A stretch of DNA of 64,000 bases from Limibacillus halophilus (GTDB lineage: Bacteria > Pseudomonadota > Alphaproteobacteria > Kiloniellales > CECT-8803): assembly GCF_014191775.1 (NCBI RefSeq), contig NZ_JACHXA010000001.1, positions 620,001 to 684,000 of the forward strand, read 5' to 3'. Below, piece by piece: positions 7,108 to 57,773 of this stretch (position 1 is the first letter of the stretch; every line of letters begins with the position of its first letter). Below the pieces are notes generated by a model. The model was not told the DNA's origin. It worked only from the letters and a program-made list of their open reading frames with translations, and made no database searches. The position numbers were made by a program, and so were the translations under genes.

Positions 7108-7161
7108 CGTTCGTCCCCTTCCTTGTCGGACACGACGGAAATGTGGGTGTGATTGATCGGC

Positions 7162-9378: not shown

Positions 9379-9427
9379 GGATTCAATCCAGGCCTAGTGC
9401 GCGTTTCTAGAAAACTTGGACTATGCA

Positions 9428-29973: not shown

Positions 29974-31005
29974 TTAGCCGATCTCACGCACCCAGAGATC
30001 GACCAGTTCGTCCTTCTGCGGCAGGACGGTTCCCCAATCCAATTCGCGGATGCTGTTAACCGTGTCCGCTCCCATAAGCAGCTTCTCTTCGAGGTCTGCG
30101 GGCGCTTCGACCTTGCTGTTCGTCGGGCTGTAGAGGCCCTTGAGGAACTTCGACTGGTAGGACGCACTAAGCGCGTTGTTTACCCAGGCGATAGCGCCGT
30201 CGACGTTTTGGCAGGTCTTTGGAATCTGGAAGCCGGTCCGCTGGCCCCATAGACCTTCCTTCGGCGTTGCCCGGCCAAGATTGAGGCCTGAGTCGATCAG
30301 CTGTTGGCCACGGTGACTGTAGAACAATGCGGCGTCGACCTCCTGCTGCTGGAACAGGCTTCGACCTTCCGACACGTTCTTGTAGACCTTGAATTTCTTC
30401 AAGCTCTTGATGGCCTCGATCCCGGGCTTGAGGTCGGTCGCGCTGCCACCGTGCAGCATTGCGGCAATATAAAGGAACGTCATGCCATAGGCCTGAGAGA
30501 TGTGCGGCACGCCGACGACGATGTCGTTCGTCCAGAGGTCCATCCAAGATTCGACGTTAGGTAGCTTGGATTTGTCGTGAACGAGTGCGTACTGGTAAAC
30601 AATCGCACCGTAGTTGGCAGTTTCAGGCGGAAGCGAGCTGGAATAGACGTCTTTGGCGTTTGGCATCTTTGACGTCATATTGTCCAGCCAGAGGTCCTTA
30701 CCCTGGAATGCAATAGGGTTGTCGAGCGTGACAACATCGTAGACTGGGCGATCGCGTGCCGCGATGAGCTTGGGCAGCATTTGCACGTCATCCTCGACAG
30801 TGAAGACGACTTCAATGTTATTTGCGGCCTCGAATTCAGGGATAATATCCTGGCGCAGAATTTCCTCGTAGGCGCCACCAAAACACTGAAACTGCAGCTT
30901 CGTTTTAGCCTGCGCAAATACGGGCTTGGATATCAACGGCAGTGCGCTGACGCCAAGCGTGCCTCCTATGAACTGGCGGCGATTGAGATCAAATTTGGAT
31001 GTCAT
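29974..31005 (-). CDS. Polyamine-type ABC transporter substrate-binding protein (Tat signal)
   Basis: The 343-residue extracellular solute-binding protein belongs to the PotD/PotF group. It has a twin-arginine signal (FDLNRRQFIGG, then a hydrophobic stretch to VFAQA). The mature part begins TKLQFQCFGGAYEEILRQDIIPEFEAANNIEVVF, typical of this type II fold. Family members bind putrescine, spermidine or other small amino compounds; the ligand here is unknown. It has an AAGGAG ribosome site. It is the last gene of a minus-strand operon in the order ATPase, permease, permease, receptor, ended by a clear terminator. The decarboxylase/methyltransferase operon is divergent from it. Confidence 0.92.
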   Translation of the reverse strand: MTSKFDLNRRQFIGGTLGVSALPLISKPVFAQAKTKLQFQCFGGAYEEILRQDIIPEFEAANNIEVVFTVEDDVQMLPKLIAARDRPVYDVVTLDNPIAFQGKDLWLDNMTSKMPNAKDVYSSSLPPETANYGAIVYQYALVHDKSKLPNVESWMDLWTNDIVVGVPHISQAYGMTFLYIAAMLHGGSATDLKPGIEAIKSLKKFKVYKNVSEGRSLFQQQEVDAALFYSHRGQQLIDSGLNLGRATPKEGLWGQRTGFQIPKTCQNVDGAIAWVNNALSASYQSKFLKGLYSPTNSKVEAPADLEEKLLMGADTVNSIRELDWGTVLPQKDELVDLWVREIG

Positions 31006-31044: not shown

Positions 31045-31827
31045 TCACTTCGCAAGGACACGATCGAGCCCGAATATCCGCTGAAGAAGCGTAACCAGCA
31101 CAAAGGCGGATAAGATTAGAATTGTGGATATTGCTGCAATTACAGGTTCAACCGAGAATTCAATATAGTTATAGATTCTTATTGGGAGAGGCATTATTTC
31201 GGGATTACTAAAGAAAAGGGACATCGTTACTTCGTCGAAACTCACGATGAATACAAAGGCGAGGCCCGCGCAGATCGAGGGCACGATCAAAGGCAGCAGC
31301 ACGCGAAATAGGATGCGGGCTTTGCTGGCACCGAGGGTTTCTGCCGCCTCAAGCACAGAAACCGGCACACTTTCCAGTCCGGCTGTGACTGTACGAATAA
31401 AGAAGGGAACGGTAATCAGGATATGGCCCACGATGATGCCAAACAGCGGCGCGTCGAGGCCGGCGGCGTAGTATATCTGAAGCAAAGCAATTCCAGACAC
31501 GATGGCCGGCAGGATCAGCGGTGCCACGACCACGCTGCGAAGTAGGGTTTGCGTCCGCGGCGACCCCATGCGCAGGCCAAGCGCCGTCGGTATGCCGATG
31601 AGGGCTGCGCCCGCCATAGTTGCCGCCGCAATAAGCAGACTATCGAAAAATGCTTGGACAAAACCGCCTACCGACATTGCTTCGACGTACCAGCGAAGCG
31701 TAAATCCACGGGGCGGGAAGGTCACGAAGTCGGTTTGAGTGAAGGAACTGCCCACGATGATGATCAGTGGTGCAATCAGGAAGATGATGGCAACCCAGGC
31801 AATTGCGGAAATGAAGCGTTGAAACAT
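31045..31827 (-). CDS. ABC transporter permease (PotC type)
   Basis: The 260-residue inner-membrane permease has six predicted helices, the first at about residues 8-30. The coupling motif lies in VSVLEAAETLGASKARILFRVLLPLIVPSI, the EAA loop that contacts the ATPase. It is the second permease of the importer and pairs with the 31829-32725 product to form the channel. The genes nearly touch (1 bp). A periplasmic-facing PRGFTLRWYVEAM near the N-terminus is typical of the PotC group. Confidence 0.93.
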   Translation of the reverse strand: MFQRFISAIAWVAIIFLIAPLIIIVGSSFTQTDFVTFPPRGFTLRWYVEAMSVGGFVQAFFDSLLIAAATMAGAALIGIPTALGLRMGSPRTQTLLRSVVVAPLILPAIVSGIALLQIYYAAGLDAPLFGIIVGHILITVPFFIRTVTAGLESVPVSVLEAAETLGASKARILFRVLLPLIVPSICAGLAFVFIVSFDEVTMSLFFSNPEIMPLPIRIYNYIEFSVEPVIAAISTILILSAFVLVTLLQRIFGLDRVLAK

Positions 31828-31828
31828 C

Positions 31829-32725
31829 TCACTTCTCCCGGAACATGAAGCCGTGCAGGAGTATGACGGCGAAGTTCAAGGTCAGCAGGACGAAGACCAG
31901 AGCCGAGCCCACCGGCCAATTCATGGAGAAGGTAAATTTTTGGTAGATGATCGTACTGATAGTCGAAAAGCGGTTTCCGCCCAGCAATTGTGGAGTCACG
32001 AAGGCGCTGATCACAGTACAGAAGACAAGTAGGCTGCCAGCGCCGACCCCCTGAAGGCAAAGTGGAATGTGGATCTTTACGAGTGTCCGCAGAGAACCCG
32101 CGCCCAGACTTTCCCCGGCCTCAATCAAGGAGGCGTCAAGTTTTTCCATCACACTGACGAGGCTGATGACCATGAGCGGCAAACTCAGGTGAATAAGCCC
32201 AATAGCGACTGAGAAAAAGTTATTGTTTATCGGCAACGGTTCGGAGATCAGCCCAACGGCATCGAGCGCTTTGTTGATAACGCCATTGTCGCCCAAAAGG
32301 ACCAGCCACGCGTAGGTCCGCACAACGATATTTACGAGCAAAGGCGTCATCGTCAGGATCAGTAGAATAGACTTGGTGGTTTTCCCCCCCTGCACAATGC
32401 GCATCGCCAGCGGATACCCAAGCAGCAGCGAGAAAACAGTGACGAAAATTCCAAGCCCGACGGTCTGCGCGAGCAGGCCGAGATAGTAATTGTCCGTCAG
32501 AATGGAAACATAATTCTGGAGGCCAAGGTCAGGCACATACAATTGTGAGGAACTGTATCGCGTAAGGCTAAGCCAGAAGATGTACACATAAGGCGCCAGC
32601 AAGCAGAGTCCATAGAACGTGGCGATTGGCGCCAGCAATGCCGACATCTGGCTACGTGTCGGTTTGCGCAGACCTTCCGCGCTGGGCCGGTAGCTCTTTG
32701 TGTCCGGTATTGCGCTTGTGGTCAT
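31829..32725 (-). CDS. ABC transporter permease (PotB type)
   Basis: The 298-residue inner-membrane permease has six predicted helices after a polar N-terminal tail of about 30 residues. The EAA loop is IEAGESLGAGSLRTLVKIHIPLCLQGV. The first loop has YIFWLSLTRYSS and LGLQNYVSILTDNYYLG, as in PotB-like permeases. It pairs with the PotC-type permease directly downstream and with the ATPase 40 bp upstream. The substrate is shared with the receptor at 29974-31005. Confidence 0.93.
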   Translation of the reverse strand: MTTSAIPDTKSYRPSAEGLRKPTRSQMSALLAPIATFYGLCLLAPYVYIFWLSLTRYSSSQLYVPDLGLQNYVSILTDNYYLGLLAQTVGLGIFVTVFSLLLGYPLAMRIVQGGKTTKSILLILTMTPLLVNIVVRTYAWLVLLGDNGVINKALDAVGLISEPLPINNNFFSVAIGLIHLSLPLMVISLVSVMEKLDASLIEAGESLGAGSLRTLVKIHIPLCLQGVGAGSLLVFCTVISAFVTPQLLGGNRFSTISTIIYQKFTFSMNWPVGSALVFVLLTLNFAVILLHGFMFREK

Positions 32726-32765: not shown

Positions 32766-33902
32766 TCAATCGCCGGGTAGCCATGTGCCGGCATCAGGTG
32801 CGGCTGTCAGCCGGACAGGGGCTCCGGTAACGAACTCGGCTGCACGGCCGACCGGCAACTGGGCTCGGAATTGCAGTTCGCCGCATGCGATGACTAGATC
32901 GAGCGCCATTCCATTCGGCCGCATCGACACTAGGCGGTAGGCAGAATCTTCTTTGGACGGGAAAACCTCGAGGCTATGCGCGGGAAGCAGGAGCTTCGCT
33001 GTTTCGCGATCAACACCGTCTGGTGCGGCGCCCTCGATTTCAACGCCTCCGGGAAGTTGAACGATCCATTTTCCTCCCTCCACGCGCGTGCTGCCGGACA
33101 GGAGATTTCCTGCATCGATGAACTCCGCCACCCACGCCGTCGCAGGCATGGAAAAGAGCTCCGAGGGTGTGGCGATTTGCTGAATTTTCCCATCGCGCAT
33201 GACGACAATTCGATCTGCCATCGCAACGGCCTCATCCTGATCGTGCGTGACGAACATCGCGGTAATGCCAAGACTGCGTTGCAGCTCCTTCAACTCGAAC
33301 TGCATCCGCGTACGCAACTGTTTGTCGAGGGCACCAAGAGGTTCGTCGAGCAGTAACAGAGAAGGCTCGAATGCTATTGCGCGAGCTAGTGCGACTCGCT
33401 GCTGCTGTCCGCCCGATAGGGCCTTTGGGCGACGATCCGCAAGCTCGGCCAGCCGAACCTTTTCGAGAGCGGCCATCGCCCGCGTACTGATTTCGGGTTT
33501 CGTTAGTCGTCGACACTCAAGCCCAAAGGCCACGTTCTGACGCACCGTCATATGGGGAAACAGCGCATAGTTCTGAAAAACTATACCGATGTTCCGATGC
33601 CGAGGCGGCAGATTGGCCACATCCTTGCCATTCAAAACGATCCGGCCGTCCTGGGGAACGTTGAGCCCGGCAATCACACGGAGCAGGGAGGTCTTTCCAC
33701 ACCCTGATGGTCCCAAGAGTGCAATGAACTCGTTCGCGCCGACCTCGAGCTTGATGTTGTCGAGCGCCACTACATCGCCGTAGCGGAGACTCAGTTGTTC
33801 GATCCTCAGCATGTCGGGTGCCGACCGCAATTCGGTTGCCGAGTGCTGCCAACACCCCTCCGGCACCTGTCCTTGATCATCGAACATATTCTTTTCACTC
33901 AT
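32766..33902 (-). CDS. ABC transporter ATP-binding protein (PotA type)
   Basis: The 378-residue ATPase drives the PotABCD-type importer. It shows Walker A GPSGCGKTSL, the Q-loop FQNYALFPHMTV, signature ALSGGQQQRVAL, Walker B LLLLDEPLGALD and switch His in MFVTHDQDEAV. A C-terminal TOBE-like domain follows (about 270-378). The N-terminal about 30 residues before the ATPase fold are unusual but preserved from the first ATG. It is the first gene of the operon, so its promoter lies in 33903-34253. A TGTCAACACTTT half of an inverted repeat is there. Confidence 0.93.
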   Translation of the reverse strand: MSEKNMFDDQGQVPEGCWQHSATELRSAPDMLRIEQLSLRYGDVVALDNIKLEVGANEFIALLGPSGCGKTSLLRVIAGLNVPQDGRIVLNGKDVANLPPRHRNIGIVFQNYALFPHMTVRQNVAFGLECRRLTKPEISTRAMAALEKVRLAELADRRPKALSGGQQQRVALARAIAFEPSLLLLDEPLGALDKQLRTRMQFELKELQRSLGITAMFVTHDQDEAVAMADRIVVMRDGKIQQIATPSELFSMPATAWVAEFIDAGNLLSGSTRVEGGKWIVQLPGGVEIEGAAPDGVDRETAKLLLPAHSLEVFPSKEDSAYRLVSMRPNGMALDLVIACGELQFRAQLPVGRAAEFVTGAPVRLTAAPDAGTWLPGD

Positions 33903-34253
33903 TCAGTTGGGATTCCCCGATGTGCCTGGGATTCCACGCTGCTTCACAAAGCTAGAGGCTAGTTTATCGATCTGTCAACACTTTGGTATGACTACAGTAG
34001 CAAGGGTCATGATTTTAACGCTATTACGATAATTCTGTCAGAGAATTGCGGAAAATTCCCACATTACAGAAAGAATAGTCCTTCAGCTTGAAAAAGTGTT
34101 GACATTTCTAGGCAGTCCGCCTGTTATCGAAGGGCGCGTCTCCATTGGGCGCAAGATCGTAGAACCTTGAGGTCAAGATGATTGTGATCTCCTCGCCCAA
34201 CCGGGTATTGGCGACATCATCTTGCTCGCGACGGTCGACTTTGGGAGGCGATC
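33903..34253. promoter_or_regulatory. Divergent promoter region with paired 12-bp inverted repeats
   Basis: 351 bp separate the importer operon (minus) from the decarboxylase operon (plus). The word TGTCAACACTTT (33973-33984) and its exact reverse complement AAAGTGTTGACA (34093-34104) lie 108 bp apart. Each contains a perfect -35 TTGACA facing its own operon. For the plus strand TGTTAT follows at 34122-34127 with 17-bp spacing. The symmetric arrangement suggests the two operons share a regulator. No gene is in the gap. Confidence 0.55.
34099..34127 (+). promoter_or_regulatory. Candidate sigma70 promoter of the decarboxylase operon
   Basis: TTGACA at 34099-34104, 17-bp spacer, TGTTAT at 34122-34127, about 126 bp before the first start codon. 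The leader between carries no recognised structure. Confidence 0.5.
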
Positions 34254-35657
34254 ATGATTGAGGGCTCGCTCGACTGGCTGAAGCAAATCGGCGGCAGGCC
34301 GGACGGCATGAGTGTGGATGCTTCCGGTATGCTTACCCTGACGGGGGTGCCGGTTGACAGGCTAACGTCGCTTTATGGCTCTCCGCTTTTCGTCACCACA
34401 GAACAGGTCATCCGCGAGAACGTTCAACGGTTGCGCGACGCTTTTAGTAGTCGTTGGCCAACCGGCGCCGAAATCTTCTATGCGATTAAGACGAACAACT
34501 GCCTCGCGATCCGCTCCTTGTTGTCGCAGGAAGGCGTGGGTGGAGAATGTTTTGGCGATATCGAATATCGCGCAACCTGCGAAGCTGGTGTCTGCCGCGA
34601 AAACATCATTCTTAACGGCAGCGACAAGACCGAAAGCGCTCTTGCCGCAGCGGTACAAGGCAACTCGATCATCAACATCGACAGCCTGGACGAGATAGCC
34701 GTGCTGTCCCGGCTTGCGACCGCCAAACGCCCGGTAAGGGTGAACATCAGGTTACGGCTGGCTCCAAAGGAGCTTGATACTTTCGGTGCAAGCTTTTTTA
34801 AGACCGGTAGTTCGGCAAGTGAAAGCTTGCTGTCGGCCAAATGGGGATTTTCCGAGGATGCGGCAAGCGACGTCATCCTCGCTCTCCGGGATGATCCAAA
34901 GTTCGACCTCCTCGGGTATTCTGCCCATGTTGGTCGATTTACCAACGATCCTGCCGCCTTCCATGTAGTGGGGCAGGAGTTGGCGCGTTTTACGACAGCT
35001 ATGAAAGCGCGTGTTGGGTTCTGGCCACGGGTGATCGACCTTGGCGGCGGATGGCCTCGCCTCAGAGAACCTGAGTCGCGCGCATCGGAGGTCAATCCGC
35101 ATGACATCGAGGACTATGCCGAGGCCATGACGTCTGCGTTGCGGGCAGGGCTCCATGGGCCCTTGCCGCGACTCTTTCTCGAACCCGGCCGCTACCTGGT
35201 CGGAAATGCCGTCGTCCTTTTATCCACTGTAACCACAACCCGATCCGATGTTGGCCGGAAGTGGATCCATGTGGACGCCAGTACGAATCTTCTGATGCGG
35301 ATCGAGACAAGCCGAAGCTGGTACAATTTGCTCCCGGCTTCGCGAATGACTGCACCCCCCAGGAATGTGGCGACCGTCGTCGGGCCGACCTGCATTCCCT
35401 CTGTTCTGGGGGTGGATCGGCCCATGCCCGACCTTCAACGCGGCGATATCGTAGCGATCCCGGATGCCGGAATGTATGCCGAGGTACTGGCATCGCAGTT
35501 CAACGGCATGCCCAGACCGGCTGGCATCATGATTGCCCCGGATGGCAATATCGATCTTGTCCGGCGGCGTGAAACCTACGAAGACATCTATCGTAATCAC
35601 AAGATTCCCCAACGTTTCGCCGAACAGAGCGCCGTCGCACGCAAGAGCTTGCCATGA
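34254..35657 (+). CDS. PLP-dependent decarboxylase, alanine-racemase fold (paralogue 1)
   Basis: The 467-residue protein belongs to the diaminopimelate/ornithine decarboxylase group (fold type III). It has PLP lysine K79 in IFYAIKTNN, GGECFGD, the IDLGGGWPR phosphate loop, FLEPGRYLVGNA, and IPDAGMYAEVLASQFN near the C-terminus. Cys380 sits in VVGPTC, the position of the catalytic cysteine of this family. The next residue, Glu or Asp in diaminopimelate and ornithine decarboxylases, is Ile381, so the usual grip on a distal amino group is missing. It overlaps the next gene by 4 bp (ATGA), so the two are coupled. The ribosome site is GGGAGG. The substrate is unknown. Confidence 0.87.
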   Translation: MIEGSLDWLKQIGGRPDGMSVDASGMLTLTGVPVDRLTSLYGSPLFVTTEQVIRENVQRLRDAFSSRWPTGAEIFYAIKTNNCLAIRSLLSQEGVGGECFGDIEYRATCEAGVCRENIILNGSDKTESALAAAVQGNSIINIDSLDEIAVLSRLATAKRPVRVNIRLRLAPKELDTFGASFFKTGSSASESLLSAKWGFSEDAASDVILALRDDPKFDLLGYSAHVGRFTNDPAAFHVVGQELARFTTAMKARVGFWPRVIDLGGGWPRLREPESRASEVNPHDIEDYAEAMTSALRAGLHGPLPRLFLEPGRYLVGNAVVLLSTVTTTRSDVGRKWIHVDASTNLLMRIETSRSWYNLLPASRMTAPPRNVATVVGPTCIPSVLGVDRPMPDLQRGDIVAIPDAGMYAEVLASQFNGMPRPAGIMIAPDGNIDLVRRRETYEDIYRNHKIPQRFAEQSAVARKSLP

Positions 35658-37057
35658 ACGGCGCAGAGACGCTTGCGAGAGAGCGCATCTTCAGCGATCG
35701 CCTGACAGTTGATGCCAAGGGCATGTTATGTATTGGCGGCGCCTCTGTCGGCGACCTTCTGCAGCGCTTCGGTTCGCCGCTGGTGGTCGGTGTCGAGGAA
35801 ACGCTTCTGGCAAACTTTGAGCGTATTCGTGACGCCTTTGGCACCGCTTGGCCCGGTCCGAGCGCAATACTCTACTCGACCAAGAGCAATGACACGCTCG
35901 CCTTTCGTCACCTGCTGTCCCGAGCGGGCGCGGGGGGTGACTGCTTTGGCGAGGGTGAGCTACGGTCCACGCTCGATAGCGGGGCAGATCCGTCGAGGGT
36001 CGCGCTCAACGGCAGTGACAAGACGGCGGAGCTTATTGATCTGGCGCTTGTGCATGGGGTCACAATCAACATCGATGCCGCAGATGAAGTCGATCTGATC
36101 GTCGCAGCGATTGCGCGAACGGGATCTTCCGCGCGAGTGAACATCCGCCTAAAAGTTCTCCCCGACGAACTAGGGCCCTACATGGGCGGATCGACACAAA
36201 GGCACGGCCAGGGTATTGCCTCCGTGCGGCGCGCAAAGTGGGGGCTTGGCCCAGACGCTGCGCAGCAGATAGCCGCCCGGCTACAGCAGACCCAAGGTCT
36301 GGAGCTGACTGGTTTTTCTGTTCATATCGGCCACCTTTCCAACCGACCGGAGGCATTCGCCTCGATCGCAACTGCATTCGGGGCCACGGTCCGCAAGATC
36401 TGCGAAAAACTAGACCTGCGCCCGAGTATTCTTGACCTCGGCGGAGGATGGGCAAGAGAGCGCGAGCCCGAACAGCGCGGCGTGCCCATCGAACGGGTGA
36501 CGGTCGAAACGCAAGTTAAGGCAGCCTGTGATGCGCTGGCCAGTGCCCTCGGTCCCTTGGCAGACCCCGTCGAAGGGCCGGTACCCGAGCTCTGGGTCGA
36601 ACCTGGACGCTACATCTGCGGAAACGCTCAGGTTCTGCTCGCTACCGTGGGATCGGTTAAGGAGGACTGTGGATTCCGCTGGGTCAATGTGGATATCAGC
36701 ACCAACAACCTGATGCGGATCGAGACGGGGGCTTTTGAATATCAGACATTGCCCGCAAGCAGGATGCACGACCTTTTCACAACCGCTCAGGAAATCGTCG
36801 GAAGAACCTGCTTCCGTTCGGTCGTTGGTGCCGGCCGGTTGCTGCCGAAACTGGTGCGCGGCGACCTTGTCGCCATTCTAGATGCCGGCATGTACGCAGA
36901 AGTCTTTGCGACTCAATTCAACAGCATGCCACGCCCGGCAGCCGTACTAGTTGGGGCCAAGGGCGAGATTGAACTTGTTCGCGTCCGGGAAACATTGGCC
37001 GACGTGTTCGCGCATCACCGTGTACCCGGTCGCCTTAAATGGCCTGAAAAGGAGTAA
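35654..37057 (+). CDS. PLP-dependent decarboxylase, alanine-racemase fold (paralogue 2)
   Basis: The 467-residue protein, exactly the length of the upstream paralogue, is similar along its whole length. It has K77 in ILYSTKSND, GGDCFGEGELR, LDLGGGWAR, VEPGRYICGNA, LDAGMYAEVFATQFN and C386 in VGRTC. The residue after the cysteine is Phe387 rather than an acidic one. Enzymes of this fold place the active site at a dimer interface using residues from both chains. Two coupled paralogues might therefore form a heterodimer, or act in sequence. This is inference. Its start overlaps the stop of paralogue 1, and it is followed 6 bp later by a small coiled-coil gene. Confidence 0.87.
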   Translation: MNGAETLARERIFSDRLTVDAKGMLCIGGASVGDLLQRFGSPLVVGVEETLLANFERIRDAFGTAWPGPSAILYSTKSNDTLAFRHLLSRAGAGGDCFGEGELRSTLDSGADPSRVALNGSDKTAELIDLALVHGVTINIDAADEVDLIVAAIARTGSSARVNIRLKVLPDELGPYMGGSTQRHGQGIASVRRAKWGLGPDAAQQIAARLQQTQGLELTGFSVHIGHLSNRPEAFASIATAFGATVRKICEKLDLRPSILDLGGGWAREREPEQRGVPIERVTVETQVKAACDALASALGPLADPVEGPVPELWVEPGRYICGNAQVLLATVGSVKEDCGFRWVNVDISTNNLMRIETGAFEYQTLPASRMHDLFTTAQEIVGRTCFRSVVGAGRLLPKLVRGDLVAILDAGMYAEVFATQFNSMPRPAAVLVGAKGEIELVRVRETLADVFAHHRVPGRLKWPEKE

Positions 37058-37063
37058 GAAGGT

Positions 37064-37276
37064 ATGGAGAGATCGCCCCGGTTTCTGACGGACCCGATAT
37101 CGGAAAAGCTATTAGAAAGCCTTGTCGCTCTCGCCGCTGAGGTAAATGTGCTGCGTGACCGTGTCGCGCGGCTCGAAGCGCAGGCGGACGGTACCGAGTT
37201 GCCGGACGGTTTTGAAAGCGCCGATAGCTTTGTCACCTCGGTCTTTGGCGGCGCTGCAACGATGGCCGCTAAGTAA
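37064..37276 (+). CDS. Small coiled-coil protein of unknown function
   Basis: The 70-residue protein has a strong AAGGAG ribosome site and lies 6 bp after the second decarboxylase and 14 bp before the methyltransferase. It is therefore a real member of the operon. Residues about 11-42 (SEKLLESLVALAAEVNVLRD..., then VARLEAQ) have a leucine/valine heptad pattern of a short coiled coil. The tail is acidic then flexible. I do not recognise the family. It could be an oligomerisation subunit or assembly factor for the neighbouring enzymes. Confidence 0.75.
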   Translation: MERSPRFLTDPISEKLLESLVALAAEVNVLRDRVARLEAQADGTELPDGFESADSFVTSVFGGAATMAAK

Positions 37277-37290
37277 GGAGGAGACGAATC

Positions 37291-38358
37291 ATGGCCATTG
37301 CCCGCCCCCTGGAACCGAAACTGGATACGGCGACCGCGTCGTATCAGAACTTTATCGGTGCGTTCCGCAAACTCTGGTCTGGGCCGATCTACCGTGAACT
37401 GCGCAACCAGGCCGAAGCGTTGCCCGATCAGTCTTCGGACAACTACGCCAGTTTTGAAGCACACCTTGCGCGCTTACCGTTGCACCAGCTTTTCGGGTGG
37501 CTTGAATACAATCTCCAGCAGATGAAGTACCTCGGAGCCTACGGAATTATTCCGATGGTGGAAGGGCAGCGCGCGGCGCTGGAGAAAGCGTTGATGCAGC
37601 CCGTTTCCGACGGGATGCTGCGGCTCGCCACCGACATCCGGCTGCCGGACTACTATAAAGAGACGGATTTCCACCACCACCCTGGCGGACTAAGAGAGAA
37701 TCCATTGGCTGGAATCGTCTACCGCGCAAGTGCGGGTGCATCAGGCGGCGTCGTCGGACGTGCGGGGTTGCACCGGCTCTTTGCCAGCGAAGTCACAGCA
37801 GATCGGACTTTTGCGCGCGTCCTGGACATTGGCTGCGGTTTCGGTCGCAGCACGCTGGCCTTTATAAGGACGGGTGCCGAGACAGAGGTTGTGGGGATCG
37901 ATCTCTCTGGCCCTTGCCTGCGTCTCGCGGCGCTTCTCGCCATGGATCTGCCCGAGGGCGGTCGCTCATCCTATATTCAGGCGGATGGTGCAGACGTGCC
38001 GCAGCCTGATGAAAGTTTTGATCTGGTAACCTCGACGATGCTGCTGCACGAATTGCCGGCCGACGCGACCCGGGCTATGACGGCGGAGGCCTTTCGGCTA
38101 CTGGCTCCGGGCGGAGAGGTCGCTCACCTGGATTTCCTCCCGCCTGAGGACAACTTTCTTCGTGCGCTTTACTTTGGGCATTCTCGCCGCAATGCAGAGC
38201 CCCACATGCGCGATCTGGCCGCGATGGACCTGCGCGGTGATTTTGAAGCAGCCGGGTTTACAGATTTCACGGTCACACCCTTTGACGAAAATGGCACGGC
38301 AGGCAGTGACGGTTGGCGTCTGCCATGGGTCATCATTCGCGCGAGGAAACCGGAATGA
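37291..38358 (+). CDS. Class I SAM-dependent methyltransferase
   Basis: The 355-residue protein has a helical N-terminal half (about 1-160). A Rossmann methyltransferase domain follows, with motif I RVLDIGCGFGRSTLAF (about 175-190), motif II EVVGIDLSGPCL, and post-I/IV FDLVTSTMLLHELP. The long N-terminal part has an ETDFHHHPGG segment, a cluster of histidines that may bind metal or substrate. The ribosome site is AAGGAGG and the stop overlaps the next gene by 4 bp. It presumably methylates the amine or an oxygen of the product of the two decarboxylases. The substrate is not evident. Confidence 0.88.
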   Translation: MAIARPLEPKLDTATASYQNFIGAFRKLWSGPIYRELRNQAEALPDQSSDNYASFEAHLARLPLHQLFGWLEYNLQQMKYLGAYGIIPMVEGQRAALEKALMQPVSDGMLRLATDIRLPDYYKETDFHHHPGGLRENPLAGIVYRASAGASGGVVGRAGLHRLFASEVTADRTFARVLDIGCGFGRSTLAFIRTGAETEVVGIDLSGPCLRLAALLAMDLPEGGRSSYIQADGADVPQPDESFDLVTSTMLLHELPADATRAMTAEAFRLLAPGGEVAHLDFLPPEDNFLRALYFGHSRRNAEPHMRDLAAMDLRGDFEAAGFTDFTVTPFDENGTAGSDGWRLPWVIIRARKPE

Positions 38359-39209
38359 GCACCTTGGCAACTCCTATCCGGCGCGGCTTTGTCGATGTGC
38401 CTGGCGGTCAGGCGCATTACCGCTATGCCCTACCCGAAGGCGCCGGCCTGGATGACATTCCACTTATCGTGCTGCATCCGTCCCCAGGTTCGGGTCGGAT
38501 GATGGCGAAGTTTGTTCGGGCGATGGCGAAAGCCGTTCCGGTCTATGCGCTCGATACGCGCGGTAACGGTGATTCGGACCCCTTGCCCGGGACGCCGACT
38601 ATAGCGGATTTCGCAACAGCAACTTGGGAGGCAATTGATGCCCTTGGGTTTGATCGTATTCGCCTGCTGGGAACCCACACCGGCGCTAGCATCGCTACCG
38701 AGGCTGCCAACCAGCGGCCTGAACGGGTGTCAGAACTGATCATCGACAATATGGGGCTATGGTCGGACAAGAAGAAGAAGACGCATTTCGAGCGCAACTC
38801 GCCAAAAGTGTCGCCCGACATGATGGGCAGTCAATTAAACTGGGCCTGGCATTATTGCCGTGACCAGTATCTTTTTTCGCCCTGGTACGAGCCGACGGTT
38901 GCCAACCGCCGGAATGTCGACTTGCCGGAGCCTCAAGTGTTGCACGAACTCGTCGTTGAGGTGCTCAAAGCGCTCGGGACCTACCATATGTCTTACTCTG
39001 CAGCGGCGAACTTCGACAAACGCGACGCCCTGGCGCGCGTGTCGGTGCGTACGCTTGTCAGTTCGAACGAACGCGATCCGCTTATGGTTCATCTGGATGA
39101 AGTTCATGCTTGCGTATCGGGATCGGTACGAAAGGTCGTGGGGGATCTGGAAACCGAAGACGGCGCGGCCGTCTCGGCCGAGATTTATGCCTCGTTTCTG
39201 AAGCGATAG
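38355..39209 (+). CDS. Alpha/beta-hydrolase-fold protein with altered nucleophile elbow
   Basis: The 284-residue protein has an alpha/beta-hydrolase core: LIVLHPSPGSGRMM for the oxyanion-hole loop, and YALDTRGNGDSDPLPG. The elbow is G106-THT-G110 instead of G-x-S-x-G, so the nucleophile position is His108. The usual Ser is absent, and no clear catalytic His follows near the C-terminus. It may be a non-hydrolytic member or use an unusual mechanism. Its ATG overlaps the methyltransferase stop (38355-38358), so it is the last gene of the coupled operon. An IS6 remnant begins 20 bp after its stop. Confidence 0.85.
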   Translation: MSTLATPIRRGFVDVPGGQAHYRYALPEGAGLDDIPLIVLHPSPGSGRMMAKFVRAMAKAVPVYALDTRGNGDSDPLPGTPTIADFATATWEAIDALGFDRIRLLGTHTGASIATEAANQRPERVSELIIDNMGLWSDKKKKTHFERNSPKVSPDMMGSQLNWAWHYCRDQYLFSPWYEPTVANRRNVDLPEPQVLHELVVEVLKALGTYHMSYSAAANFDKRDALARVSVRTLVSSNERDPLMVHLDEVHACVSGSVRKVVGDLETEDGAAVSAEIYASFLKR

Positions 39210-39335: not shown

Positions 39336-40274
39336 TTAGTCCGCCGCACCTTTGGGTGAGGTACGGGGCGTGATTGTGTTCTGGTCAAGGCGCTCCAGAG
39401 CCGATTTGAAAATAGACAAGAAGTCGCGCGCCAGATGGCTGGGAGTGCGGCTGGAAGGAAAAAGCGCCCAAAGCCGGAATTCTACTCTGGGCTTAAACGG
39501 CAGCACGGCAATCTCTCGATCATCAAACTCATAGGTGCTGAAGGGATCGACGACGGACACGCCAGCACCGTATGCCACGAACGCGCAAGCGGCCTCTGAT
39601 TGCTCGGTTTCAATCTGTATTCTTCTAGTTACGCCGAGATTGTCGAATACCTTGTCCACGCCGAAACGTGAACGGTCATCGCGACCCAAGGAGATGAAGG
39701 GTTCGCGCACCAGGTCCCTGGCATGAACGGACTTTAACCTCGATAAATGATGATTGCGGGGCACCGCGCAGACGCCGGACATCCTGAAGAGTTCTTCGCT
39801 GGTTACTCCGGGGTGTTCCCCGGAAAGCAAGCCGATTCCAATGTCGACGTTGTTTGCTGCCACCCAATCAATAAGTGAGCGAGATCGTCTGCTTTCCACA
39901 GTGACACGAACGTCGGGCCGAACCTGGCAATATTCCGACACCACCCTTGGCAGGAACCGCGACGCCATTGCCGGAAAGGCCGCTATTGTCAGTTTGCCCC
40001 AGTTTCGGTCCCTTATACCCTCTGCTACCCGCGCAATCTTCTCCAACCCGGTAAACATTCGATCGGCCTCGGCAAAGAGCGTCTCCGCTTCAGAGGTCGG
40101 ATAGACGCGGCCGTGCTTTCGCTCAAAAAGCTTAAAGCCGCAAATACCCTCAAGGCTCTTAAGCTGTTGGCTGATCGCCGGTTGGGAAACGTTAAGCATT
40201 TCAGCGGCACCAGTCACGCTGCCGCACCGCATGACACTAACGAAAGCTTCCAGTTGGCGTGCGTTTACCTTCAT
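39336..40274 (-). CDS. LysR-family transcriptional regulator
   Basis: The 312-residue protein has an N-terminal winged helix at residues 4-62: ARQLEAFVSVMRCGSVTGAAEM, then QPAISQQLKSLE. An effector domain starts near residue 90 (GKLTIAAFPAMASRFLPRVVSEY). It lies divergent from the second PotABCD-type importer operon. A candidate operator is in the 122-bp spacer, with CTAATTAG at 40304-40311. It probably controls that operon in response to its imported substrate. Confidence 0.9.
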   Translation of the reverse strand: MKVNARQLEAFVSVMRCGSVTGAAEMLNVSQPAISQQLKSLEGICGFKLFERKHGRVYPTSEAETLFAEADRMFTGLEKIARVAEGIRDRNWGKLTIAAFPAMASRFLPRVVSEYCQVRPDVRVTVESRRSRSLIDWVAANNVDIGIGLLSGEHPGVTSEELFRMSGVCAVPRNHHLSRLKSVHARDLVREPFISLGRDDRSRFGVDKVFDNLGVTRRIQIETEQSEAACAFVAYGAGVSVVDPFSTYEFDDREIAVLPFKPRVEFRLWALFPSSRTPSHLARDFLSIFKSALERLDQNTITPRTSPKGAAD

Positions 40275-40303
40275 TAGAGCACCTTATGATGTTTGGCTAA
40301 AAA

Positions 40304-40311
40304 CTAATTAG
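40304..40311. promoter_or_regulatory. Possible LysR operator core in the divergent spacer
   Basis: The 8-bp palindrome CTAATTAG lies in an AT-rich stretch between the LysR gene (39336-40274) and the binding-protein gene (start 40397). A short palindrome can occur by chance, so this is weak. Confidence 0.25.
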
Positions 40312-40396
40312 ACTTTATGGAATGTGGCTGCAAGGATCAAAACTTCCCAGGGCCAGTCCGCTGGTGCCTCGATCAATTGCTAGGAGGGAGGAAGGT

Positions 40397-41452
40397 ATGA
40401 AGTCGATGAAGAAAGAACTATCGATAGGGGCGGCGACGAGTGCGATAGCGCTCGCTGCTTTCACGATGCAGGCGCAAGCTGCCGAGAGCCTAACGGTGGC
40501 TTTCTATGGTGGTAGCTGGGGTGAAGCCATCCAATCTTGCATGGTTGACCCTTTTGTAGCGAGCACGGGCATCCAAGTGACGCCGGAGCCGGGCGTGTCG
40601 AGCGTAACACTTGCCAAACTTAAACAGCAGAAAGGCGACCCGGTGATTGACGTCGCCTGGCTGGACGGCGGTGTATCCGAGCTAGCCGCTGCCGACGATC
40701 TGGTTGCAGCATTAGATCCAGCCAAAGTCCCGGGCGTTTCAGGGGTGATCGACGAAGGCGTATATCGTACCGCCGATGGACAGGTCTACGCGCTCAGCAC
40801 CGGATATTATTCCTTGGGTCTGGTCTACAACACCGATGATGTTAAGAATCCGCCGGAAAGCTGGTGGGACCTATGGGGGCCGGATTATGCAGGCCTTGTG
40901 ACGCTACCCAGCCCGGCAAACGCCATGGGCGTGCCGTTGTTCGTTCTGATCAACCAGCTTGCTGGCGGCACGATGGACAACTTTGATCCAGGTGTTGCGA
41001 AGATGAACGAGTTGGAAGTCTCGTCCTATTTTGATGCTTCCGGTAATGCGACCAACAGCTTCCAAAGCGGCGAAGTAATTGCCGGAGCCCACTACGCAAA
41101 CGCCGCCTGGGCGATGGCGGACAAGGGTCTCCCGCTTCGCTATGCCGTTCCCAAGGAAGGCGCGCCTTCAGGCGACATCCGCGTGCATATAGTTAAGGGA
41201 ACAAAGTCCATGGAGGCAGCGGAGAAGTTCGTCGATTTCGTTGTCGCCAAAGAGCAGGCAACCTGCATGACCAATCGGCTTTATGTCGGTCCGGCAACCG
41301 CAGGTATTACGCCGACGCCCGAGGCGCAGGAGCGCTTGCCCTGGGGCGCTGATGGTTCTGTGAAAAATCTAGCCCTTTTCGATTGGGATGAAATCAACGC
41401 CAATCGGGACCGGATCACAGAAATATTCAACCAGAAAGTCGCCGGAAAATAG
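40397..41452 (+). CDS. Polyamine-type ABC transporter substrate-binding protein
   Basis: The 351-residue extracellular solute-binding protein belongs to the PotD-like group. It has a Sec signal peptide (MKSMKKELSIGAATSAIALA... ending AQAAES). The mature start SLTVAFYGGSWGEAIQSCMVDPF and DPVIDVAWLDGGV are characteristic. The start at 40397 follows AGGAGGGAGGAAGGT, so the upstream in-frame codons are not credited. It is the first gene of a long plus-strand operon: receptor, ATPase, AtuA-like, DUF4387, two permeases, then catabolic enzymes. The ligand is likely an amino acid-like or cyclic amine compound used by those enzymes. Confidence 0.92.
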   Translation: MKSMKKELSIGAATSAIALAAFTMQAQAAESLTVAFYGGSWGEAIQSCMVDPFVASTGIQVTPEPGVSSVTLAKLKQQKGDPVIDVAWLDGGVSELAAADDLVAALDPAKVPGVSGVIDEGVYRTADGQVYALSTGYYSLGLVYNTDDVKNPPESWWDLWGPDYAGLVTLPSPANAMGVPLFVLINQLAGGTMDNFDPGVAKMNELEVSSYFDASGNATNSFQSGEVIAGAHYANAAWAMADKGLPLRYAVPKEGAPSGDIRVHIVKGTKSMEAAEKFVDFVVAKEQATCMTNRLYVGPATAGITPTPEAQERLPWGADGSVKNLALFDWDEINANRDRITEIFNQKVAGK

Positions 41453-41547
41453 AAAAGCTCTGCGGGCGGCGGTGCCGATGACGTGTCTGCCGTCCGCATC
41501 ATTTTCTCTCCTGGCGTCTTTAGTTTTCAATCATTCCGAGGCTTTTG

Positions 41548-42618
41548 ATGGGCGAACCAATTATCAAGGTTGACCGTCTGACCAAGCGCTATGGCAGCGT
41601 GACTGCCTTGGCAGAGGTCAGTGCGCAGGTTCAGCCGGGAGAGTTTCTCGCTCTTCTTGGACCGAGCGGTTGCGGGAAAACGACGCTTTTGCGCCTTATC
41701 GCCGGCTTCATAGATCCGTCCGAAGGCGAGATCGTGATTGAGGGCGTTAGCATGAATCGCGTGCCGCCCGACCAGCGCCCCGTTAACACTGTTTTTCAGA
41801 ATTACGCACTTTTTCCGCACCTCACCGTTCGCGACAACCTCGCCTTTGGACCAAGACGAAAGCGTGTAGCGCGCGAGGAGATTGATAAACTGGTGGCCGA
41901 GGCGCTCGAGATGGTTGGTATGGAAGCCTTTTCCAAGCGCTATCCCAGTGAGCTTTCGGGGGGCCAGCAACAACGTATCGCGCTGTCCAGGGCCATCATT
42001 AACAAACCTAAGGTGCTTTTGCTTGATGAGCCGCTGGGCGCTTTGGATCTGAAGCTGCGCAAGCGGATGCAGATTGAGCTGAAGCGCCTGCACGAACAGC
42101 TGCGTATGACCTTCATCTATGTAACGCACGACCAGGAAGAAGCTCTCGTGATGGCCGATCGCATCGCCGTTATGGGTGAGGGCAGGATAGTCCAACTGGG
42201 TACGGGCCAGGAGATTTACCGGGAGCCGAACTCACGTTACGTCGCGGACTTTATTGGCGATGCCAATCTTCTGGATTGCGAAATTGATCACGAAGGCTGG
42301 CTGCGGCTTGGCGACGCAACTGGGGAGCGCCTATTCCGGCCTGCCGAGGCAGGCGACCAACGGCGCGTCACACTCATGGTGCGGCCAGAGCATGTAAAGC
42401 TCGGCGAGCCCAAGGCTGAATCCGAGGCTGTGCTGCTGAAGGGCAGGCTCCGTGATCTCATCTTTGTCGGTAGCGGCACGAAATTCGTGGTGGCCCTCGA
42501 TTCCGGCCACGAGATCGTGGCCGAATCGTCCTCCAATGCTTTGTCGGAGCAATTGGAACAGGGCGCGGAAATCACTCTCCACTGGCGCGCGGAGCACGCG
42601 CGTGTTCTCAACAAATGA
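41548..42618 (+). CDS. ABC transporter ATP-binding protein (PotA type)
   Basis: The 356-residue ATPase has Walker A GPSGCGKTTL, Q-loop FQNYALFPHLTV, signature LSGGQQQRIAL, Walker B LLLDEPLGALDL and switch His in IYVTHDQEEAL. A TOBE domain follows from about residue 270. ATG 41548 is preceded by CCGAGG; a TTG codon directly before it is also in frame but unnecessary. It drives the importer with the permeases at 44329-45986. The operon is unusual because two metabolic genes lie between the ATPase and the permeases. Confidence 0.93.
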   Translation: MGEPIIKVDRLTKRYGSVTALAEVSAQVQPGEFLALLGPSGCGKTTLLRLIAGFIDPSEGEIVIEGVSMNRVPPDQRPVNTVFQNYALFPHLTVRDNLAFGPRRKRVAREEIDKLVAEALEMVGMEAFSKRYPSELSGGQQQRIALSRAIINKPKVLLLDEPLGALDLKLRKRMQIELKRLHEQLRMTFIYVTHDQEEALVMADRIAVMGEGRIVQLGTGQEIYREPNSRYVADFIGDANLLDCEIDHEGWLRLGDATGERLFRPAEAGDQRRVTLMVRPEHVKLGEPKAESEAVLLKGRLRDLIFVGSGTKFVVALDSGHEIVAESSSNALSEQLEQGAEITLHWRAEHARVLNK

Positions 42619-42637
42619 CACATTTGGAAATGCACTG

Positions 42638-43990
42638 ATGACAAAGCAGACACACACCGTTCTTACCCCAACCGGCACATTGGGCTATGGCTTTGGGGCT
42701 GAGGCCTTTGCCCGCGGTATGGCTATGAGTCCTGACGTTATCGCCGTCGATGCAGGCTCGACCGATCCCGGCCCTCACTACCTCGGCTCCGGCGAGCCCC
42801 TTGTATCGCGGATCAGCGCGAAGCGGGAGCTGACCCAAATGATCAAAGCGGGCCGGGCGGCTGGAATTCCCGTAATTGTTGGTAGTGCGGGCGGTGCCGG
42901 TTGCAAGGCGCATGTCGATTGGACCGTGGAGATCGTCCGGGAGATTGCGAGAGAATCCAACCTCCATTTTAAGCTGGCTACGATCTATTCGGATGTGTCC
43001 CGCGAAAGGCTTGCCGAAGCACTTAGCCGAAATGAGGTGAAGGACTTCGAGGCAGGCTTTCAATTGACCCCGGAAATGGTCGAGCAAGCTGGCGCCATTG
43101 TCGCGCAGATGGGCCATGAACCGATTGTTGAAGCGCTGAAAGCCGGGGCTGAAGTCATCATCGCCGGGCGCGCTTGCGACGACTGCGCAATAGCCGCGCA
43201 CCCAATTTATAGCGGTGCCGATCCGGCACTCGCAATTCACATGGGCAAGATCTTGGAGTGCGGCGCCTTTTCCGCCGAACCCTTTGCGATGGATGTGATG
43301 CTCGGCATTTTGCAGCCGGGGCACTTCGAGTTGGAGCCCGGTAGCCCGAACAGACGCGCTTCGGTCACCTCTGTCGCGGCCCATTCGCTCTATGAGCGCG
43401 AGAACCCATTTTTGCAAGCTGGTCCAGGGCATCAGCTCGACCTGAGCGCGTGCACCTTTGAACAGTCCGGCGAGCGCCGGGTCCGTGTCACGGGTGCGCA
43501 GTTTCTGGAGGACGAGGACTATTGGGTGAAACTGGAGGGCGTTCGGCAGACCGGATACAGGACGATCTGTGTTGCCGGTATTCGCTGCCCGACCTTGATC
43601 GCGCGGCTGGATGAGCTGTTGGAGCAAGTCCGCGTGGAGACCCTGGAGTACTTTGACGATCCGAGCCTGCACATTGGCTACACTGTCTATGGTCGCGACG
43701 GCGTGATGGGAGCGTTGGAACCTCAAGCCGCCATTTCCTCTCAGGAGATTGGATTGGTGATCGAAGCGATCGCCGTGGATCAGACCCTCGCGCGGGGCGC
43801 CTGCCATCATGTCAGCGGGGGGCTTCTCCATCTTCACTATGATGGGCTGTACAACACCTCGGGCAACCTCGCGTTCCTCTACTCTCCGTCAGAGATCGAT
43901 GCGGGCCCGGCTTTCGAGTTCTCCATCTATCATTTGATGAAGGTGACAAGCCCGACCGAGCTCTTTCCTTTGCATCTGGAGGACCTGTGA
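42638..43990 (+). CDS. AtuA-like (DUF1446) acyclic terpene/acyl-CoA pathway-type protein
   Basis: The 450-residue protein of the AtuA N-terminal (DUF1446) family. Recognisable segments are AVDAGSTDPGPHYLGSGEPL, PVIVGSAGGAGCKAHVDWTVEI, EVIIAGRACDDCAIAAHPI and KILECGAFSAEP. AtuA itself belongs to citronellol/geranyl catabolism, but its exact role is not settled, and relatives occur in many other catabolic operons. The start at 42638 is chosen because the long upstream extension reads through the ATPase gene. Paired genes for AtuA-like and DUF4387 proteins, as here (1 bp apart), are common. The reaction is unknown; a hydratase- or lyase-like step on a carboxylate is possible. Confidence 0.85.
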   Translation: MTKQTHTVLTPTGTLGYGFGAEAFARGMAMSPDVIAVDAGSTDPGPHYLGSGEPLVSRISAKRELTQMIKAGRAAGIPVIVGSAGGAGCKAHVDWTVEIVREIARESNLHFKLATIYSDVSRERLAEALSRNEVKDFEAGFQLTPEMVEQAGAIVAQMGHEPIVEALKAGAEVIIAGRACDDCAIAAHPIYSGADPALAIHMGKILECGAFSAEPFAMDVMLGILQPGHFELEPGSPNRRASVTSVAAHSLYERENPFLQAGPGHQLDLSACTFEQSGERRVRVTGAQFLEDEDYWVKLEGVRQTGYRTICVAGIRCPTLIARLDELLEQVRVETLEYFDDPSLHIGYTVYGRDGVMGALEPQAAISSQEIGLVIEAIAVDQTLARGACHHVSGGLLHLHYDGLYNTSGNLAFLYSPSEIDAGPAFEFSIYHLMKVTSPTELFPLHLEDL

Positions 43991-43991
43991 C

Positions 43992-44321
43992 ATGTCCGGT
44001 CAACCGCAAAAACTTCGGGAATTGGCAAAGATCGTGCGCAGCAAGAACGCTGGGCCCTTTCGCCTGACCTTCGATATTCTTTTTGCCGACAGAAAAGCCT
44101 TCGAGGTCGTCCGTGACGCAAGGGCGATTACCCGGGAAGCCGTGGCCCGCGCTTACAAGATCAGAGAGGACCAAATTTCCTCGATCTATGAAATCCCAAC
44201 GGGAAACGCCTTCAAAGTGACGCTCCACCGGCCCGTGGTCCAAGGGGCAATGGGAGAAACGGACGTTTACGGGTGCCAGCAGCACGTCCCGCTGTTGGAC
44301 CTTCCTGTAGCGAGAGGATAA
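43992..44321 (+). CDS. DUF4387 protein, partner of the AtuA-like protein
   Basis: The 109-residue protein has the DUF4387 pattern: ELAKIVRSKNAGPFRLTFDILFADRKAFEVVRD, then IREDQISSIYEIPTGNAFKVTL. It starts 1 bp after the AtuA-like stop and ends 7 bp before the first permease. In other bacteria this domain is found fused to or next to DUF1446, so it is probably the small subunit of the same complex. The function is unknown. Confidence 0.85.
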   Translation: MSGQPQKLRELAKIVRSKNAGPFRLTFDILFADRKAFEVVRDARAITREAVARAYKIREDQISSIYEIPTGNAFKVTLHRPVVQGAMGETDVYGCQQHVPLLDLPVARG

Positions 44322-44328
44322 ACGGGTC

Positions 44329-45168
44329 ATGCGCATCACGCGGATGTGGGCGATTTTTCTGCTTGGTGTTCCCGTAGCCTTGCTTATCGCCTACTTCATC
44401 GTCCCCTTTACCGTGGTTGCGATAACCAGCCTCCAGGCGGAGGATGGCTCTTGGACGCTCGCGAATTATGCGAGGCTTGTCGGTGATTCCTACTATCTCG
44501 AAACACTCTTACTGACTTTCGAGGTTTCGCTTTGGGTTGTGGTGTCCACGTTCCTGGTCGGCTATCCGCTTGCCTATTTCATGACCTTCGTGGTGCGCAA
44601 CAGACTGCTCCGTCGTCTTTTCTACGTGATCGTCGTTGTGCCGCTCTTCACCAGTAACATCGTGCGTGCTTTTGGCTGGATGGTGTTGCTCGGCCGCAAG
44701 GGCATGGTGAACGACATTCTCTTGAGCCTTGGTTTAATTGACCGACCCATGCAGCTGCTGTTCAGCAAGGTCAGCATCGTCATCGGGCTGAGCTACATCA
44801 TGACGCCCTTCATGGTGCTCACCATTGCCAGTGTCTTGCAGAATATCGATCGATCCTTGCAGGAGGCATCACGCGATCTGGGAGCCGGTGCCTTCGAGAC
44901 TTTCCTGAAGGTGACTTTTCCGCTGAGCCTGCCTGGCGTGGTTGCCGGTTCGTTGATCGTCTTCACGCTTTCTGTCAGCGCTTACGTGACGCCGGCCATA
45001 TTGAGTGGCGGTAAAGAGATTGTAACCTCCATGCTGATCTTTCAGCAGTACGCCTCGGTCTTCAATTTCCCCTTTGGCGCGGCGCTGGCTGTCGGCCTTT
45101 TGCTGACAACGCTCCTCTTGATCTCGCTTTATCTGCTGGCCGTCGAGAAGAAGGTGAAGTCAACATGA
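44329..45168 (+). CDS. ABC transporter permease (PotB type)
   Basis: The 279-residue inner-membrane permease has an N-terminal helix at about residues 7-28 and five more. The EAA loop is LQEASRDLGAGAFETFLKVTFPLSLPGV. VVVPLFTSNIVRAFGWMVLLGRKG is typical of the PotB group. It overlaps the second permease gene by 4 bp (ATGA at 45165-45168), so equal amounts are made. It partners the ATPase at 41548 and the receptor at 40397. Confidence 0.93.
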   Translation: MRITRMWAIFLLGVPVALLIAYFIVPFTVVAITSLQAEDGSWTLANYARLVGDSYYLETLLLTFEVSLWVVVSTFLVGYPLAYFMTFVVRNRLLRRLFYVIVVVPLFTSNIVRAFGWMVLLGRKGMVNDILLSLGLIDRPMQLLFSKVSIVIGLSYIMTPFMVLTIASVLQNIDRSLQEASRDLGAGAFETFLKVTFPLSLPGVVAGSLIVFTLSVSAYVTPAILSGGKEIVTSMLIFQQYASVFNFPFGAALAVGLLLTTLLLISLYLLAVEKKVKST

Positions 45169-45986: not shown

Positions 45987-46027
45987 CCCACCTTTCCCAT
46001 CAAACCAATAAGCCGAGGTAAAGCGAC

Positions 46028-47035: not shown

Positions 47036-47046
47036 AGGCGAGCAGA

Positions 47047-48252: not shown

Positions 48253-48277
48253 ACTGGAACAAGGAGGAGAACAGAGG

Positions 48278-49845: not shown

Positions 49846-49870
49846 AAGTCGATTGAGAAAGCAGCATCAA

Positions 49871-56001: not shown

Positions 56002-56115
56002 GTGCGCAGGGTAGGGGGCGGCACAAATTCCCTCAACCCAAGTTCTTCTGACAATGCCCCCTCCCTTGCTCAAGGCGATTTGCTCTGACAGAGCCGTTTT
56101 TTTGACAGTACCCCC
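55297..56115 (-). mobile_element. IS6-family insertion sequence (left end not resolved)
   Basis: Contains the intact transposase and, at the right side, a terminal-like sequence (GCCGTTTTTTTGACAGTACC region, 56091-56115). This directly abuts the DhaK-DhaL stop at 56117. The matching inverted repeat was not seen on the left, so the element boundary there is uncertain. Confidence 0.7.
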
Positions 56116-56116
56116 T

Positions 56117-57763: not shown

Positions 57764-57773
57764 GATGTTCTCC

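Follow-up and report, generated by a model that had tools for sequence, protein, structure and literature searches.

The 64,000-nucleotide stretch of the Limibacillus halophilus genome analyzed here (the window; contig NZ_JACHXA010000001.1, positions 620,001 to 684,000) contains a five-gene operon, dec1-dec2-cc-MT-abh, divergent from a four-gene importer, for which a sequence-only reading had proposed a dedicated small-molecule pathway leading to a methylated amine. Our comparisons point in the catabolic direction: operon and importer probably make up half of a catabolic regulon, horizontally spread and under GntR control, that in this genome is split over two loci. We read the two halves as one regulon because they adjoin on a plasmid of Antarctobacter heliothermus and in the loci L035 and L036, because a rare palindrome is common to both loci in L. 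halophilus, and because together they would cover uptake as well as hydrolytic, hydration, and lyase steps. The nine genes in the window and the two operator-like sites between importer and operon are as follows.

29974-31005, minus strand: importer solute-binding protein (SBP_bac_8; 86% identical on the Antarctobacter plasmid).
31045-31827, minus strand: importer permease (open reading frame [ORF]; 83% identical on the plasmid).
31829-32725, minus strand: importer permease (ORF; 79% identical on the plasmid).
32766-33902, minus strand: importer ATPase (ORF; 73% identical on the plasmid).
33969-33984, unstranded: palindromic operator-like site, copy 1 (GATCTGTCAACACTTT), proposed GntR site (region comparison, genome scans).
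34093-34108, unstranded: palindromic operator-like site, copy 2 (AAAGTGTTGACATTTC), overlapping a TTGACA -35-like box upstream of dec1.
34254-35657, plus strand: dec1, fold-type-III pyridoxal 5'-phosphate (PLP) decarboxylase family, motifs HVGR and TCIPS (Pfam, NCBIfam, alignment).
35654-37057, plus strand: dec2, diverged paralogue of dec1, motifs HIGH and TCFRS (Pfam, NCBIfam, alignment).
37064-37276, plus strand: cc, 70-aa helical protein, motif ALAAEVxVLRDRVAxLE, partner gene of MT (cc profile, neighbor loci).
37291-38358, plus strand: MT, class I S-adenosylmethionine (SAM) methyltransferase fold with an N-terminal helical region of ~150 aa and a DFHHHPGG motif (Pfam, alignment, predicted model).
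38355-39209, plus strand: abh, alpha/beta-hydrolase fold with the nucleophile elbow GTHTG, i.e., no Ser, Cys, or Asp (Pfam, alignment, predicted model).

The tight packing described in the sequence-only reading is indeed present throughout 34254-39209, with a 4-bp ATGA overlap between dec1 and dec2, gaps of 6 nt (dec2/cc) and 14 nt (cc/MT), and a 4-bp overlap between MT and abh. A consensus scan listed neither a promoter nor an excess of terminators in the operon interior, and Rfam and tRNA scans of the whole window came back empty. Pfam assigns Orn_Arg_deC_N and Orn_DAP_Arg_deC domains to dec1 and dec2, Methyltransf_25 to MT, and Abhydrolase_1 to abh, and has no match for cc, even up to an E value of 0.1. 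As for the importer, its earlier description as polyamine-type holds as a family resemblance (SBP_bac_8) and fails as a specific assignment, the binding protein staying under every NCBIfam cut-off.

Searching genome contigs with a profile made from the decarboxylase alignment returned 20 loci, five of which (L035 to L039) carry matches to dec1, dec2, and MT together, the other 15 having a single decarboxylase relative. Gene calls in unannotated loci came from an ORF heuristic; where neither a family scan nor a tblastn match is cited, the gene names there were assigned by eye. With the window and plasmid pSMS3-3 of A. heliothermus, this makes seven records, the other six all alphaproteobacterial. 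On pSMS3-3, all nine genes are 69 to 86% identical and in unchanged order. We found abh in six of the seven records (the exception being the 7.1-kb L037 contig), cc likewise in six (L039 having no match at E ≤ 1), and at least one importer gene in six, with none within the fetched part of L035. Gene order is altered in L037, L038, and L039, where dec2 precedes dec1 (L037 and L038) or importer genes are interspersed (L039), yet the genes remain together. The synteny of the paired decarboxylases, which the sequence-only reading had named as a check on its proposal, is thus borne out by comparable units in six other records, and since these exist, the unit is real rather than a chance arrangement; it is also horizontally mobile. 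Within the order, a dec2 relative at E ≤ 1e-60 occurs in 1 of 61 genomes, that of L. halophilus itself; at the level of the class, with up to four candidates scored per genome, matches at E ≤ 1e-65 occur in 3 of 385 genomes, L. halophilus included and being the only one with two.

On pSMS3-3, both halves fit between 24616 and 47995, in a single 23-kb island. Besides the unit, this island encodes an aconitase, a methylisocitrate-lyase-like enzyme, a hydantoinase-like amidohydrolase, an isochorismatase-type amidase, another importer, and a GntR regulator, as well as a luciferase-like monooxygenase (LLM) and short-chain dehydrogenases/reductases (SDRs). In L036, the unit is adjoined, directly beside dec1, by the isochorismatase-type amidase, the hydantoinase-type amidohydrolase, the aconitase, a PrpB-like lyase, and GntR, and L035 has the same genes, minus the isochorismatase, in the same position. 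No second-half gene, GntR relatives included, has a match in the window at E ≤ 1e-8; in L. halophilus, this half resides away from the window on contig C6 (L127). The domains of the C6 copies were confirmed by family scan, GntR and FCD domains both being found in L127:17461-18129. Compared with the L036 and L035 copies, the C6 proteins are 73% (isochorismatase), 55% (hydantoinase), 54% (aconitase), 55% (GntR), and 59% (lyase) identical; compared with the plasmid copies, 43 to 86%. The C6 importer is 41 to 51% identical to that in the window. At E ≤ 1e-70, the isochorismatase is found in only two of 289 genomes of the class, L. halophilus and G155. Another relative, L107, has cc and MT alongside genes of the aconitase, lyase, and GntR types, and no decarboxylase in the stretch fetched; a MmgE/PrpD-looking gene, named by eye, is present in both L107 and G155.

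Comparison of the intergenic regions yielded the palindrome AAASTGTYRACASTTT, with two copies in the window region and two in the C6 region. In the window, a -10-like TGTTAT at 34122-34127 was read by eye and is absent from the consensus-scan list. Importantly for its specificity, the paired pattern TGTCAACA-N95..125-TGTTGACA has exactly two matches in the 3,481,263-base genome (reversed-pattern control, 0), one in the importer/dec1 promoter region (C1:653973-654104; window 33973-34104) and the other in the aconitase/gntR region (C6:221326-221446), where an arithmetic estimate under equal base composition predicts about 0.025. Allowing up to one mismatch, the 14-mer occurs at five sites in the genome, four of them in the window and C6 loci, with one site for the control. 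Palindrome matches at or near island promoters were also seen in L107, in G155, on the plasmid, and, with a single match apiece, in L035 and L036; one plasmid match (L136:28638) lies away from any promoter. For comparison, a set of 123 other loci, which still contains some island loci and overlapping stretches, gave nine matches in 1.07 Mb. We predict that the GntR protein encoded on C6 binds the palindromes.

Dec1 and Dec2 are, as first described, two diverged members of the decarboxylase family: they are fold-III relatives, 41% identical in the alignment, and both lack the CESGD loop. A tree of 29 sequences places the paired Dec1 and Dec2 proteins in one clade of 13 (100/99), within which the six Dec2 rows are monophyletic (100/98); a Dec1 clade was not recovered, the L039 Dec1 joining Dec2 at 90/85. 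The tree left out L049 and the truncated L037 Dec2 (<300 aa), both of which are in the motif table. In place of CESGD, the window proteins have CIPS (Dec1) and CFRS (Dec2), the relative L003 from the same genome retaining CESGD, and HIGS is changed to HVGR in Dec1 and HIGH in Dec2. The acidic residue of the CESGD loop holds the distal amine of lysine, ornithine, or diaminopimelate (DAP), and because it is absent here, a substrate resembling these three is unlikely. The best curated match of both proteins is TIGR01048, with 259.8 and 216.1 bits against a cut-off of 297.9 that is thus not reached; nor was any NCBIfam cut-off for ornithine, arginine, lysine, or carboxynorspermidine decarboxylases, or indeed a curated cut-off of any kind. 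Motifs and cut-offs together rule out a plain duplication of LysA.

Such changes raise the question of whether Dec1 and Dec2 are still plain decarboxylases. That they have become racemase- or lyase-type PLP enzymes, or a heterodimer with one active site, is a possibility that we regard as somewhat doubtful. It would fit the retention of two diverged paralogues side by side in seven records, the residue following HxG (Arg in the seven Dec1 rows, His in Dec2, with the position uncovered in the truncated L037 Dec2), the Arg or Lys carried by the Cys loop of Dec2, and the location of the active site at the dimer interface in structures of this fold. However, both proteins retain Lys, His, GGG, EPGR, Cys, and Tyr at the catalytic positions in all seven records wherever covered (some being uncovered in the truncated L037 Dec2), and we continue to treat Dec1 and Dec2 as putative decarboxylases. 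A fused relative is encoded on plasmid pRR3-57 of Halioglobus pacificus (L033:9007-11199), where a 31%-identical decarboxylase domain is followed by an SDR-like domain in one ORF; its neighbors, by eye, are arginine-deiminase-like, N-carbamoylase-like, and dimethylformamidase-like genes.

The cc-MT pair is a two-gene module that extends beyond this operon. A cc profile located cc next to MT relatives lacking decarboxylases in L028, L030, L007, and L063, albeit with weak matches in L007 and L063 (E values of 0.0006 and 0.0003). Of 18 loci fetched for a survey of the module, 16 were picked for their MT match; ten of these have a cc match at E ≤ 0.05, not always adjacent (~1.2 kb apart in L104), and none has a decarboxylase match within the stretches fetched. 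Across the class, the MT profile at E ≤ 1e-30 matches in 25 of 385 genomes, L. halophilus included. Genome G088 (loci L030 and L055 to L065) has at least 14 MT matches at E ≤ 1e-3 (14 of 61 candidates scored), an apparent expansion of such methyltransferases, and cc adjoins MT in its loci L030 and L063. In L106:818-13307, a cc-MT locus is accompanied by a tripartite ATP-independent periplasmic (TRAP) importer and by LeuC/LeuD-like hydratase, PrpB-like lyase, HyuA/HyuB-like, and isochorismatase-like genes; it looks like the same logic in a variant form, the fetched stretch having no decarboxylase. Proteins resembling Abh with a GxHTG elbow were also found on the fetched MT stretches of L066, L007, L104, and L111, with GFHAG in L115.

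The window MT has the SAM motif I VLDIGCGFGR and the acidic residue after strand 2 in VVGIDLS, and we expect it to methylate. Its predicted model (mean predicted local distance difference test [pLDDT] score, 84.6) has DsyB (7wdq) as the top Foldseek match (E value, 1.3e-11; TM score, 0.52). The Abh model (mean pLDDT, 78.6, with residues 149-159 and 169-188 below 50) has 3om8 as its top match in the PDB (E value, 3.3e-15; TM score, 0.71). These structural matches reflect general folds and do not indicate a reaction, and PDB sequence searches with the unit proteins returned distant relatives only. Abh has the alpha/beta-hydrolase fold and lacks a Ser, Cys, or Asp nucleophile in the GxNxG elbow, which reads GTHTG or GSHTG in all six aligned unit copies (GTHTG in the window). 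This excludes an ordinary Ser esterase and justifies its earlier description as altered, GTHTG standing in place of GxSxG.

Several observations weigh against a single regulon. The isochorismatase has no match at E ≤ 1e-10 in the genomes of L035, where it leaves a gap in the linkage, and L037, and in L038 and L039, it occurs only in more distant versions: in the genome of L038, a single contig shows weaker similarity to the aconitase (27%), lyase (40%), and isochorismatase (38%), and on the contig taken as that of L039, an isochorismatase is 81% and a hydantoinase 66% identical to its counterpart in L066. Conversely, the second half is present in G155, where the 35 kb examined contain no match to dec, cc, MT, or abh, just as the cc-MT pair is found elsewhere without such decarboxylases. 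The plasmid LLM oxygenase has a best match of merely 27% in the L. halophilus genome. With regard to the palindrome, there is no match in L037 or L039, the sole match in L038 lies inside dec2, a third, weaker match in the window (16447) lies inside an unrelated gene, and the fifth 14-mer site lies in an unrelated island on C9; we followed up this last site and judged it to be due to chance. Moreover, since the motif was chosen after viewing the window and C6 regions, the scan gauges its specificity and is not an independent prediction, and the motif includes TTGACA, the -35 box of sigma-70 promoters.

One alternative is that the two loci encode separate pathways under a common regulator, for instance alternative uptake or entry routes for related compounds. 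Each locus indeed has its own ATP-binding cassette (ABC) importer, and in some genomes the halves lie apart, but the single cluster formed in L035, in L036, and on the Antarctobacter plasmid makes us think this unlikely. Still less probable is that the TTGACA-containing motif is merely a strong divergent sigma-70 promoter and no operator: the similarity reaches beyond TTGACA as a symmetric 16-mer, and the paired pattern at two places in the genome and the 14-mer at five should be far below the number of -35 boxes. That the unit instead makes or salvages a methylated amine, starting from an imported amino acid, would be in line with the decarboxylase and methyltransferase adjoining an importer, but is similarly improbable given that the linked, apparently co-regulated genes are of amidohydrolase, amidase, aconitase, and lyase types, that cc-MT is seen without such decarboxylases, and that both decarboxylases lack the CESGD loop. 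Of the sequence-only reading, then, the tightly packed unit tied to an importer stands; methylated-amine synthesis gives way to the catabolic logic of the hydantoinase-, amidase-, aconitase-, and methylisocitrate-lyase-type genes to which neighborhood and rare palindrome link it, and decarboxylating and methylating an amino acid is not the defining logic, because cc-MT occurs in stretches without such a decarboxylase.

For the catabolic regulon that we favor, gene content suggests a degradative route, with steps in the following putative order. The importers would take up a nitrogen-containing compound with an amino-acid part, to be processed by the cc-MT pair, Abh, and the two decarboxylase-fold proteins Dec1 and Dec2, whose substrate probably has no distal amine. 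The hydantoinase-like enzyme encoded on C6 might open a cyclic amide, imide, or ureide, after which the isochorismatase-type amidase could take off the freed amide or carbamoyl group. The aconitase would isomerize the resulting acid, and the methylisocitrate-lyase-like enzyme would cleave it in a retro-aldol reaction to central metabolites. Because the route would end in aconitase and methylisocitrate-lyase chemistry, it suggests a branched di- or tricarboxylic acid freed from a nitrogen-containing ring. Among chemistries that we merely considered are the breakdown of cyclic imides or of alkyl-maleates (exemplified by dimethylmaleate hydratase and dimethylmalate lyase), citrate-imide siderophores, and pyrimidine amino acids. 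A much more speculative idea, to which we give little credence, is that of "methylate to cleave": following decarboxylation by an obligate Dec1/Dec2 heterodimer with unequal sites, MT with cc as its dedicated small helical subunit, together with an Abh that has His for Ser, would make a methyl-branched acid from the imported nitrogen compound for cleavage by aconitase- and methylisocitrate-lyase-type enzymes.

Other parts of the window deserve brief mention. The region 39336-50845 contains another importer cluster, in which Pfam identifies LysR and AtuA-family genes, along with, by eye, proline-racemase-like, CaiB-like, thiolase-like, DUF35-like, and ornithine-cyclodeaminase-like genes. This cluster is not beside the unit on pSMS3-3, and its LysR gene (39336-40274) was not adopted as regulator of the unit, the plasmid copy having no adjoining LysR gene. 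Another catabolic-looking island, at 4810-10615, encodes an N,N-dimethylformamidase-large-subunit-like protein (DMFA2_C) and a Rieske oxygenase, both confirmed by Pfam, plus ferredoxin-reductase-like and aminopeptidase/NicX-like genes named by eye. At 55297-57865, a transposase-like ORF (of IS6-family look, by eye) overlaps the end of one resembling dihydroxyacetone kinase; pSMS3-3, too, has annotated IS6-family transposases.

Taken as one regulon, an operon of obscure purpose becomes part of a defined set of ~19 genes, to which the window contributes 9 and C6 contributes 10. This also provides context for three kinds of protein: tandem decarboxylases without CESGD, the cc-MT pair, and GxHTG alpha/beta-fold proteins. 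With the plasmid copy sitting in the cultured, diatom-associated A. heliothermus SMS3, the substrate should be approachable via plasmid curing and substrate panels. Like the sequence-only reading, we could not match the genes to a described pathway: nothing in the open-access literature appears to describe this gene set, which, with subscription papers outside the scope, is no proof of absence.

The regulon would be an apparently undescribed member of a known sort, the regulated catabolic island, with unusual enzymes, as comparison with known systems illustrates. Dec1 and Dec2 share with LysA and the fold-III ornithine, arginine, and DAP decarboxylases the two-domain fold, the catalytic residues, and TIGR01048 as top match, and differ in their sub-cut-off scores, the replaced CESGD and HIGS motifs, and their arrangement as tandem diverged paralogues. 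LysA-like enzymes with unusual substrates have precedents in the N-citrylornithine decarboxylase FslC and the L-glutamyl-acyl carrier protein decarboxylase BtrK, both of which match Dec1, although for FslC the score is 98.8 against a 500-bit cut-off. MT resembles the class I SAM methyltransferases DsyB, Rv2258c, and SgvM in fold and SAM motif, from which its N-terminal DFHHHPGG region (outside the PDB sequence matches), its small partner gene cc, and its catabolic context set it apart. Rut-type oxidative pyrimidine catabolism likewise features an isochorismatase-type amidase and an alpha/beta-hydrolase fold, with an LLM oxygenase and SDRs having counterparts in the plasmid island; however, with 34.8 bits the L036 isochorismatase stays far below the 377.95 required for RutB, Abh has no Ser nucleophile, and the LLM match in the L. 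halophilus genome is the distant one noted above. Finally, the proximity of aconitase and methylisocitrate-lyase-like genes in L035, L036, C6, and the plasmid recalls the lower 2-methylcitrate cycle (AcnD, PrpB, PrpD), from which the island differs in that the L035 lyase reaches 245.3 bits against a PrpB cut-off of 354.4 and the L036 aconitase 708.7 against an AcnD cut-off of 1419.85, the latter passing the AcnA model TIGR01341 instead (996.2 against 945).

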